Assembly (NCBI GenBank): GCA_016788945.1
Contig: JAEUSA010000414.1
Span: forward strand, 1-22,078
Direction: 5' to 3'
DNA from: Leptospiraceae bacterium
GTDB lineage: Bacteria; Spirochaetota; Leptospiria; Turneriellales; Turneriellaceae
Length of the DNA stretch: 22,078 nucleotides
Shown here: positions 62 through 1,294 of the stretch, piece after piece
How the letters are laid out: every line of letters starts with the position of its first letter
Numbering within the stretch: the first letter of the stretch is position 1
The notes under the pieces: generated by a model
Databases searched by the model: none
What the model was told of the DNA's origin: nothing
The model's input: only the letters and a program-made list of their open reading frames with translations
Translations under genes and position numbers: made by a program

Positions 62-1294
62 ATGCCATTTGCCATCGAAGCCACCGACGGATCAGCCCGC
101 GCCGGCCGCCTCACCTTCAGGCGCACGGCACCGCGCAAAGACGGCCTCCATGCCGGCGCGGAGTCCGAGACTTCCTGTTTCACGACACCGCGCAAAGACG
201 GCCTCCGGCCGGCCGCTGGCCGGGCAACGCCCGGCGCGGAGTCCGATGCCTCTTCTATCACGATCGATACCCCTGTTTTTATGCCTGTCGGCACGCAGGC
301 CACTGTCAAAGCAATCACACAGGAAGACCTCGAAGAAATCGGCTTCAGGCTGATTTTAGGTAACACCTACCATCTATACCTGCGGCCCGGTGAGGATGTC
401 ATACGCGAGGCGGGCGGCATACACAACTTCATGTCGTGGCCGTTTGCCGTACTGACCGATTCGGGTGGTTATCAGGCTTTTTCACTGAGTGAAAATGTTA
501 AACTCGCCGATCACGGCGTCATCTTCCGTTCGCACCTCGACGGCAGCGAACATCTATTTTCGCCCGAGCGCACCGTAGCAATACAGCGGGCAATCGGCTC
601 TGATATCATGATGCCGATCGATGACTGTGCGCCCTACCCTGCTGACGAAAAACGCCTCAAAGAAAGCCTCGTTCGCACGCACCGCTGGCTTGCCGAGTGC
701 AAACAGCACTGGCTGCGCGACCCCCGCCATCAGAAGCTGTTCGGCATATCACAGGGCGGGGTTAACGCCGCTCTGCGCGCTGAAAGCGCACGTGCGGTCA
801 GCGATCTCGATCTGCCAGGTTATGCGATCGGGGGACTCTCGGTCGGTGAACCGCTCGAACATTTTGTGCCTTCGCTCGGCGCGGCAATCGAACATTTACC
901 GCAACACAAACCGCGTTACGTGATGGGGGTCGGCACCATTCCTGAAATTCTCAACGGCGTCGAACTTGGCGTCGACATGTACGACTGCGTATTGCCGACG
1001 CGTAACGCGCGCAACGGGCAGGTATTTACCTCTACAGGCAAAGTTAATTTGCGCAACCTGAAACATGCTCGCTCAGACGATGCCATCGACGGCGAATGCG
1101 GATGCAAAGTGTGCAAAAAATATTCACTGGGCTATATCCGCCATCTGCATAAGCAGAGCGAGATTCTCGGCCTCATGCTCAGCACATACCACAACCTCTA
1201 CTTCATGTACGGATTTATGAAGAATATGCGCAATGCGATCATAGCAGGTAAATTTGCCGAATACCGGGCGCATTGGTTAGGTATCTTTAAGTAA
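62..1294 (+). CDS. tgt: queuine tRNA-ribosyltransferase (tRNA-guanine transglycosylase) with in-frame N-terminal insertion
   Basis: Exchanges guanine-34 for a 7-deazaguanine precursor (preQ1 in bacteria) in GUN-anticodon tRNAs, in the queuosine pathway. Visible motifs are LTDSGGYQ (about 131-138), the active-site GGLSVGE (257-263), the nucleophile region MYDCVLPTR with Asp308, and a zinc site C346-x-C348-x2-C351 with His377 in the STYHN motif. The start ATG gives the expected opening TDGxARxGRLxF. About six residues normally separate that from TPxFMPVGT; here there are about 50. The extra residues (roughly 22-67) come from a duplicated palindromic DNA element and contain two copies of PRKDGL...GAES. 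The total of 410 residues is therefore longer than the usual 370-380. The core looks intact, so the enzyme is probably functional. A PlsC-like gene follows 63 bases downstream on the same strand. Confidence 0.96.
   Translation: MPFAIEATDGSARAGRLTFRRTAPRKDGLHAGAESETSCFTTPRKDGLRPAAGRATPGAESDASSITIDTPVFMPVGTQATVKAITQEDLEEIGFRLILGNTYHLYLRPGEDVIREAGGIHNFMSWPFAVLTDSGGYQAFSLSENVKLADHGVIFRSHLDGSEHLFSPERTVAIQRAIGSDIMMPIDDCAPYPADEKRLKESLVRTHRWLAECKQHWLRDPRHQKLFGISQGGVNAALRAESARAVSDLDLPGYAIGGLSVGEPLEHFVPSLGAAIEHLPQHKPRYVMGVGTIPEILNGVELGVDMYDCVLPTRNARNGQVFTSTGKVNLRNLKHARSDDAIDGECGCKVCKKYSLGYIRHLHKQSEILGLMLSTYHNLYFMYGFMKNMRNAIIAGKFAEYRAHWLGIFK
129..168 (+). repeat. copy A of coding palindromic repeat inside tgt
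   Basis: The left half CACCGCGCAAAGACGGCCTCC (129-149, 21 bases with both ends counted) recurs without change at 186-206. The right half GGCGCGGAGTCCGA (155-168) recurs at 233-246. In this copy only five bases separate the halves. It is translated in frame as part of Tgt and sits where Tgt homologues have only a short turn. Confidence 0.85.
186..246 (+). repeat. copy B of coding palindromic repeat inside tgt
   Basis: Second copy of the element at 129-168, offset by 57 bases (19 codons). Here 26 bases separate the two conserved halves, against five in copy A, a difference of exactly seven codons. The extra core holds the self-complementary GGCCGGCC and a hairpin CCGGGC-AAC-GCCCGG. The outer halves are themselves loosely complementary (GGCCTCC against GGAGTCC). 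Together the two copies account for most of the roughly 44-residue insertion in Tgt. Confidence 0.85.

Follow-up and report, generated by a model that had tools for sequence, protein, structure and literature searches.

The tgt gene in the window, the whole stretch of 22,078 nucleotides that was analysed, carries an insert which is very probably a member of a genus-wide family of palindromic elements of about 57 nt with two hairpins. It would have entered the gene in frame and then been duplicated in tandem. The window is a contig of G000, a draft genome of 3.70 Mb that is split into 465 contigs and is 94% complete, and the features of the insert are collected in Table 1. The two units, A and B, are placed between the N-terminal strands of Tgt and the TPVFMPVGT block. 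The initial annotation had described two copies of one element with identical left and right halves. The left halves are identical over the 21 nt claimed (129-149 and 186-206), and the right halves agree over 16 nt (153-168 and 231-246) where 14 had been claimed. When recomputed, the spacers of 5 and 26 nt between the halves agreed, as did the offsets of 57 and 21 nt, multiples of three which keep both copies in frame. The repeat is thus real, but it extends beyond the halves described and consists of tandem units of 57 and 78 nt: positions 124-149 match 181-206 at 96% and positions 153-185 match 231-263 at 82%. Exact repeats within 62-300 reach a length of 21 nt, compared with a maximum of 11 nt in 500 random 239-nt windows of the remaining contig.

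Table 1. Features of tgt and its insert in positions of the window; R1 is the family model described in the text.
Feature	Position	Strand	Basis and details
tgt, tRNA guanosine(34) transglycosylase, 410 aa, host gene of the insert	62..1294	+	TIGR00430, 449 bits against a cut-off of 307 bits; PDB matches; AlphaFold pTM 0.87
Unit A, 57 nt (19 codons), two hairpins	124..180	+	R1 match at 124-188, 61.1 bits, E 2.7e-11 in the window; direct repeat with unit B
Hairpin 1 of unit A	129..163	+	Outer arms CACCGCGC / GCGCGGAG with one A:A mismatch; bulge AAAGA; inner stem CGGCC/TGCCG (innermost C:T unformed); loop TCCA
Hairpin 2 of unit A, weak, loop TTCC	167..181	+	Strict stem of only 2 bp in one test
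Unit B, 78 nt (26 codons), tandem copy of unit A plus 21 nt	181..258	+	Alignment; R1 match only at 192-213, 17 bits
Nested GC-rich palindrome (GGCCGGCCGCTGGCCGGGCAACGCCCGGC type), hairpin 1 of unit B	205..235	+	Inverted-repeat pairs I2 and I8; alike sequence elsewhere in the genus

A palindromic addition of 21 nt inside the first hairpin is what makes unit B longer than unit A. The strong palindromes claimed for this copy were found in the inverted-repeat pairs I2 and I8, with a fold of -34 kcal/mol on the plus strand and -42 kcal/mol on the minus strand. The two copies had been taken as insertions. Copy B is no second independent insertion but a tandem duplicate, made locally, of a single 57-nt unit, and it contains a nested palindrome. 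A search for the nested palindrome with up to two mismatches gave 11 matches in four of the seven Turneriella genomes, one of them the tgt site, and none in the backwards control, and the palindrome may be a second small repeat family. At the same tolerance, GGCCGGGCAACGCCCGGC was seen to recur in longer hairpins, mostly in G006 (L041, L048, L053 and L244) and also in G001 (L234).

Counted in alignments, the window's Tgt has 44 extra residues compared with G001 and P0004 and 43 compared with G003, in agreement with the figure of about 44 given initially. The AlphaFold model predicts the insert as a disordered loop at the turn of the N-terminal beta-hairpin, which fits the placement at a short turn that had been assumed. 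Against PDB structures the insert was not seen as a gap, and the local alignment begins at residue 53, inside the insert. Searching the genome contigs for loci related to tgt returned only distant Tgt proteins with 39-50% identity. Inserts of other sequence occupy the same beta-hairpin turn in G006 (L019, about 20 residues), P0015, P0016 and P0030, the one in P0016 being bounded by repeated GGTSCATP. The turn is thus prone to insertions.

Relatives have both filled and empty tgt sites, as had been expected of an inserted element. One unit is present in G002, P0001, P0002 and P0003, and the interior of the P0002 unit resembles copy B at the protein level. The unit is missing from the Tgt of G001, G003 and G004, and no Tgt match was found in G005. 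The names carried by the close homologues P0001 and P0011, the latter T. parva, identify the genus as Turneriella. In a tree of the Tgt core the window stands beside P0001 (92/85) within a group of 17 rows (84/95). G002 groups with forms without the unit (96/94), apart from the window's group, so an old single gain followed by losses, repeated gains, and exchange are all compatible with the pattern in tgt. Two partial rows of this tree, P0019 and P0027, begin at MPVGT and are labelled empty, yet the insert region is not covered in them.

Filled and empty sites were also seen in rdgB. The rdgB unit is present in G001, G003 and G004 and absent from G000, G005 and G006, and outside the genus from G007, G008 and G012. 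The exact difference between G003 and G006 is 19 amino acids, which equals 57 nt, and rdgB of G004 and G001 has more than one unit each. The comparison left out the loci of G002, G010 and G011, and G009 had no match; the G002 gene matches in two pieces around the insert, as expected of an empty site.

Plain sequence searches of the window's own genome found no further copy of the element. The next match after tgt had only E 0.6, and the 18-mer core with up to three mismatches gave 9 matches, two of which were tgt itself, versus 10 in the backwards control. The initial annotation had named the lack of other copies in the genome as evidence against an inserted element, and this search taken alone would therefore have led to the wrong verdict. 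A DNA search of 13 genomes of the bacterial family gave dispersed pieces in other Turneriella genomes, at loci common in layout, and the core pattern had 70 matches over both strands of the seven Turneriella genomes versus 8 in the backwards control. We describe the element by R1, a model of structure and sequence made from 22 seed units, mostly from different sites and aligned nearly without gaps. With it, many further copies were found, both in genes and between them.

According to R1, hairpin 1 combines 8 modelled pairs in its outer stem and 5 pairs in its inner stem with a 5-nt bulge (AAAGA) and the loop TCCR. Hairpin 2 follows about 26 nt after the first and has the loop TCC in 15 of the 22 aligned units. 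The copies have in common the AAAGA bulge, the two TCC loops and the period of about 57 nt, whereas their stems differ and covary. The proposed structure pairs 77.8% of the cells in the 22 units (59.5% when shuffled), and the covariation score is 0.461 versus 0.155 for shuffled alignments, a value that none of 500 shuffles reached; slid versions scored 0.07-0.14. The number of pairs with a double change is a weak measure, 14 versus 11.9 when shuffled, and was equalled by 44 of 500 shuffles. Seeds were picked by the core pattern and retained only if at least four of the five inner-stem pairs formed, and the covariation figures for the inner stem (helix 2) are therefore biased, while helices 1 and 3 are free of this bias. 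Helix 1 was paired at 81.8%, with double changes in seven of its eight pairs, and helix 3 at 57.6%. Since unit A is one of the 22 seeds, its R1 score holds by construction; support that does not depend on the seeding comes from its DNA match in G002 and other genomes. Unit B matches R1 only in part because of its nested palindrome, as expected.

At E<=0.01, R1 had at least 37 matches in G000 and at least 52, 28, 20, 32, 17 and 33 in G001 to G006, these counts being lower bounds with 150 candidates scored out of 570-2124 per genome. Six genomes of other genera in the same bacterial family gave 0, 0, 1, 3, 0 and 0 matches at this threshold. Across the phylum, where stricter filters were used and 17 candidates were scored per genome shown, 7 of 296 genomes matched at E<=1e-4, every one of them Turneriella. 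All genomes are drafts, and within the genus only G001 and G004 reach 99% completeness. Many R1 sites hold arrays, with a spacing of mostly 57-59 nt. Near-identical copies at different loci are a mark of recent transposition; among the loci examined, they occurred only inside larger repeats of G006.

This distribution bears on the possibility of ordinary loop growth, in which the Tgt loop was simply duplicated in tandem and the likeness to sequences elsewhere is a convergence of GC-rich palindromes. Unit B is indeed a local tandem copy, the own genome gives no other copy by sequence search, and other Tgt proteins (G006, P0015 and P0030) have different inserts at the same turn. However, the single unit matches a family found in all seven Turneriella genomes and in none of the 289 others at E<=1e-4. 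It has the bulge, loops, spacing and 57-nt period of that family, and at this turn some relatives have it while others lack it. We consider loop growth of this kind very improbable.

We next consider the copies within protein genes. From 116 R1 matches, 91 copies were analysed, mostly one per array, at loci themselves chosen from R1 matches. ORFs were taken from stop to stop; 53 of those spanning a copy passed the length filter and 40 were scanned with Pfam, which found a family in 35. In 22 of the 40, as read from the printed coordinates, conserved domain matches contain the copy, flank it or break off at it. These are rdgB (three genomes), glgA, ndh2, phosphoglucomutase, a 7TM guanylate cyclase (three genomes), a pseudouridine synthase, an alpha-amylase, valS, a metallo-beta-lactamase fold protein, a 2-hydroxyacid dehydrogenase (where the match ends at the copy), an Lhr-type helicase, pheS, a HAD/cytidylyltransferase protein, a nitronate monooxygenase, an FMN oxidoreductase, purT, nadE and an alpha/beta hydrolase. 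Structural alignments give the same picture: ValS has a 17-residue gap against 1gax at the copy, PheS residues 178 to 211 fall between residues 162 and 164 of 4p71_C, GlgA residues 224 to 271 stand against residues 187 to 206 of 6gne_A, and RdgB residues 80 to 108 fall between residues 68 and 69 of 3tqu_A. The copy is outside the domain or at its edge in 13 ORFs, including the purC side (three genomes) and the ispF side, and some of these copies may really be intergenic. Copies in one and the same orientation precede the purC domain in G002 (L054), G005 (L181) and G001 (L142), lying at the start of the gene or before it.

Each 57-nt copy has a mean of 4.5 stop-free frames out of six, versus 3.5 out of six in 166 control stretches. 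Since the length of 57 nt is divisible by three and all six frames of the unit are poor in stops, the tgt reading frame would have survived the entry of a single unit at the turn of the N-terminal beta-hairpin. In the lineage of the window, this unit would then have been duplicated in tandem, the second copy carrying the nested palindrome. We propose that the element is tolerated where frame and fold permit, rather than being useful to the host protein.

Copies at sites common to several species are a natural experiment, since pairing within protein genes is often kept there by double changes. At ten shared sites, the pairs of hairpin 1 gave 172 unchanged cases, 34 double changes with pairing kept, 4 tolerated single changes and 34 breaks, counted over species pairs within groups, which are not independent events. 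Double changes were thus as common as breaks. The shared sites were set by alignment of the flanks, and L168/L180 and L163/L196 are shifted by about one unit. In tgt, the codons GGC...GCC of G000 correspond to GCC...GGC in G002, and the inner stem is paired in both although the peptide reads DGLHAG in one and DALHGG in the other. Two causes would explain the double changes: the hairpin may be under selection, or one arm may be copied onto the other by template switching. The shared sites bear on the question of which of these maintains the hairpins.

Regarding the mutational cause, the hairpins could persist since template switching during replication copies arm onto arm (quasipalindrome correction), making stems and mending them. 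Such switching has been proposed to create and maintain hairpins, with the argument made for RNA genes (PMC8794818), and it agrees with double changes that keep pairing even when the protein is altered, as in tgt. It gives no account of the conserved letters of bulge and loops, the fixed spacing or the dispersal of one blueprint. We regard it as possible, though somewhat short of probable. It is compatible with a dispersed element family and is a complement to that explanation, not a replacement for it.

Selection would point to a role of the hairpins as functional RNA sites, for instance sites bound by CsrA. CsrA sites have ANGGAN loops. The loop of hairpin 1 on the minus strand is of the AYGGAY kind in most copies, and the pairing is often kept between species as described, yet with 34 breaks. 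CsrA (PF02599) is encoded in all seven Turneriella genomes, which fits such a role, but since it is present in every one it does not discriminate between the explanations. Hairpin 2 is without TCC, hence without GGA, in 7 of the 22 aligned units. The copies also lie deep within unrelated housekeeping genes, and their orientations in the 22 domain-interrupted ORFs are nearly equal, the coding strand being the TCC strand in 10 and the opposite strand in 12. About half of the in-gene copies would therefore show TCC loops in the mRNA, which makes a regulatory RNA role less likely. The Rfam TwoAYGGAY model (RF01731, 168 positions) matched none of the seven Turneriella genomes, though its control was silent everywhere too. 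Rfam scans of the window region and 14 element loci returned no informative family, with a chance mir-1225 match below the cut-off and a tRNA beside one array. A functional RNA site is an unlikely, though not negligible, explanation.

Direct repeats of 8 nt or more that span the unit were found in 41 of 90 copies, and in 25 of 68 copies without a full neighbouring unit, compared with about 2.5% of 3000 mismatched pairs. Offsets of 50-65 were allowed and were mostly 57-59; copies too near the end of a locus were dropped. Since a left-hand hairpin 2 is often present beside the copies, many of these direct repeats are remnants of a neighbouring unit and not target duplications.

The 3' ends of RNA genes were more telling. 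At 8 of 83 loci a tRNA or tmRNA gene has the copy at its 3' end (L138, L162, L049, L171, L182, L186, L198 and L149). Five of these are tRNA-Arg genes, three of which represent one tRNA-Arg ccg site in three genomes, and the others are one tRNA-Leu, one tRNA-Met and one tmRNA. L146, with a copy 47 nt past tRNA-Met, was excluded from the count. A tRNA-Val reported by ARAGORN in L189 was likewise dropped, as it looks like a false match inside the element. The final 7-10 nt of the tRNA are repeated 47-50 nt further downstream at L138, L049, L186 and L198, and repeat and body together measure 57-59 nt. At L171, 11 nt of the tRNA end recur at 105, and a direct copy of the RNA end was looked for at L162, L182 and L149 and not found. 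These repeats suggest that the element body measures about 47 nt and that a target of about 10 nt is duplicated.

An inverted copy of 5-6 nt directly after the tRNA was observed at L138, L162, L186 and L198, each of these short matches being weak singly. Hairpin 2 would therefore be partly built by the end of the host tRNA at these loci, and at L171 the tRNA end serves as the outer arm of hairpin 1. It is conceivable, if rather doubtful, that the family is inherited as structure and not as sequence: a hairpin core would be retained, and the arms would be written to complement the adjoining host DNA. At tRNA 3' ends the acceptor end would then be an arm, usually of hairpin 2, though at L171 it is the outer arm of hairpin 1. 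Several of the elements contain a short inverted copy of it, and a direct copy of 7-11 nt lies further on in five of eight. If true, this would mean insertion by replication-based template switching and not by cut-and-paste transposition.

On the main reading, the elements would spread as DNA through a process that acts on single strands or is based on replication, with a target duplication of about 10 nt, and the arrays would grow locally by slippage or recombination. Y1 transposases (Y1_Tnp) were found in five of the seven Turneriella genomes. Near ten such loci, R1 gave nothing convincing, with a best E of 0.29, and these searches linked no mobilising enzyme to the family. A repeated small gene (MEYHQTSVSLREKSYRRLKAAQ...) beside copies on several G006 contigs (L189:2411-2983, L190:1702-2175, L192 and L059) was weighed as a partner and dropped. 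Its product may resemble the Leptospira DUF1564 proteins.

The insert had been compared with the protein-coding palindromic elements of Rickettsia (RPE) and Wolbachia (WPE), here in a spirochaete. The likeness stands, given the dispersed family, the in-frame insertions, the empty sites and the modelled loop, while kinship with RPE amounts to likeness only. RPE and WPE are described as short palindromic repeats lying in frame in many unrelated genes and also between genes, several RPE being at solvent-exposed places (PMC10969869, PMC3767692). The Turneriella family is similarly dispersed, palindromic and in frame in many unrelated ORFs, and its peptide is predicted to lie in an exposed loop, the disordered loop of the Tgt model. 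It works like RPE and WPE, a likeness drawn from their published descriptions. However, it belongs to another phylum, and its unit is 57 nt instead of about 100-150 bp, although its arrays can be longer. It also has two covarying hairpins, almost free stem sequence, in-frame tandem arrays and both orientations about equally often in genes. The difference in unit length is not decisive, since the short CGTC REPs are taken to include RPE-4 and RPE-6 (PMC3733652).

GTAG and CGTC REPs are described as small dispersed hairpins that occur in dimers and clusters, are sometimes intragenic and are found also in some free-living bacteria; the CGTC families are without a known transposase and come from five phyla including Spirochaetes (PMC3733652). 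The main text of that report makes no mention of Leptospira, Leptonema, Turneriella, Spirochaeta or Treponema. Like REPs, the Turneriella hairpins are small, dispersed, arranged in dimers and clusters and partly intragenic. Unlike REPs, by inspection of the alignment, their near-invariant unpaired letters are the AAAGA bulge and the TCC loop, with no unpaired GTAG or CGTC tag. Although most copies read CGTC on the minus strand, half of these four letters fall within the covarying inner stem, the first pair of which varies (CG 18, UA 3, GC 1). The link of GTAG REPs to a RAYT gene was also not seen, the 10 Y1_Tnp loci being without a convincing R1 match.

The TwoAYGGAY motif consists of two hairpins with AYGGAY loops. 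On the minus strand of the Turneriella element, hairpin 1 usually has such a loop, and hairpin 2 sometimes has one and is often otherwise altered. The listed range of RF01731 is human gut, gamma-Proteobacteria and Clostridiales (PMC2864571). Dispersed hairpin-forming repeats, some of them in genes, are also described from sponge mitochondria, with conserved stems and varying loops (PMC2800124); in the Turneriella family it is the loops that are conserved and the stems that vary. Among the best matches in the open-access literature we found no description of such elements for Turneriella. The family differs from RPE, WPE and REP in unit length, unpaired letters, covariation and distribution.

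Opitutus terrae and Thioalkalivibrio are free-living bacteria. Intragenic REPs have been reported in both (PMC3733652), and coding insertions are therefore not peculiar to Rickettsiales. Since a plain sequence search missed the family in its own genome and a structure model was needed, similar families may hide elsewhere. Palindromic elements that spare the reading frame are best known from Rickettsia and Wolbachia, and the spirochaete copies in valS, pheS, nadE, glgA, rdgB and tgt widen that range.
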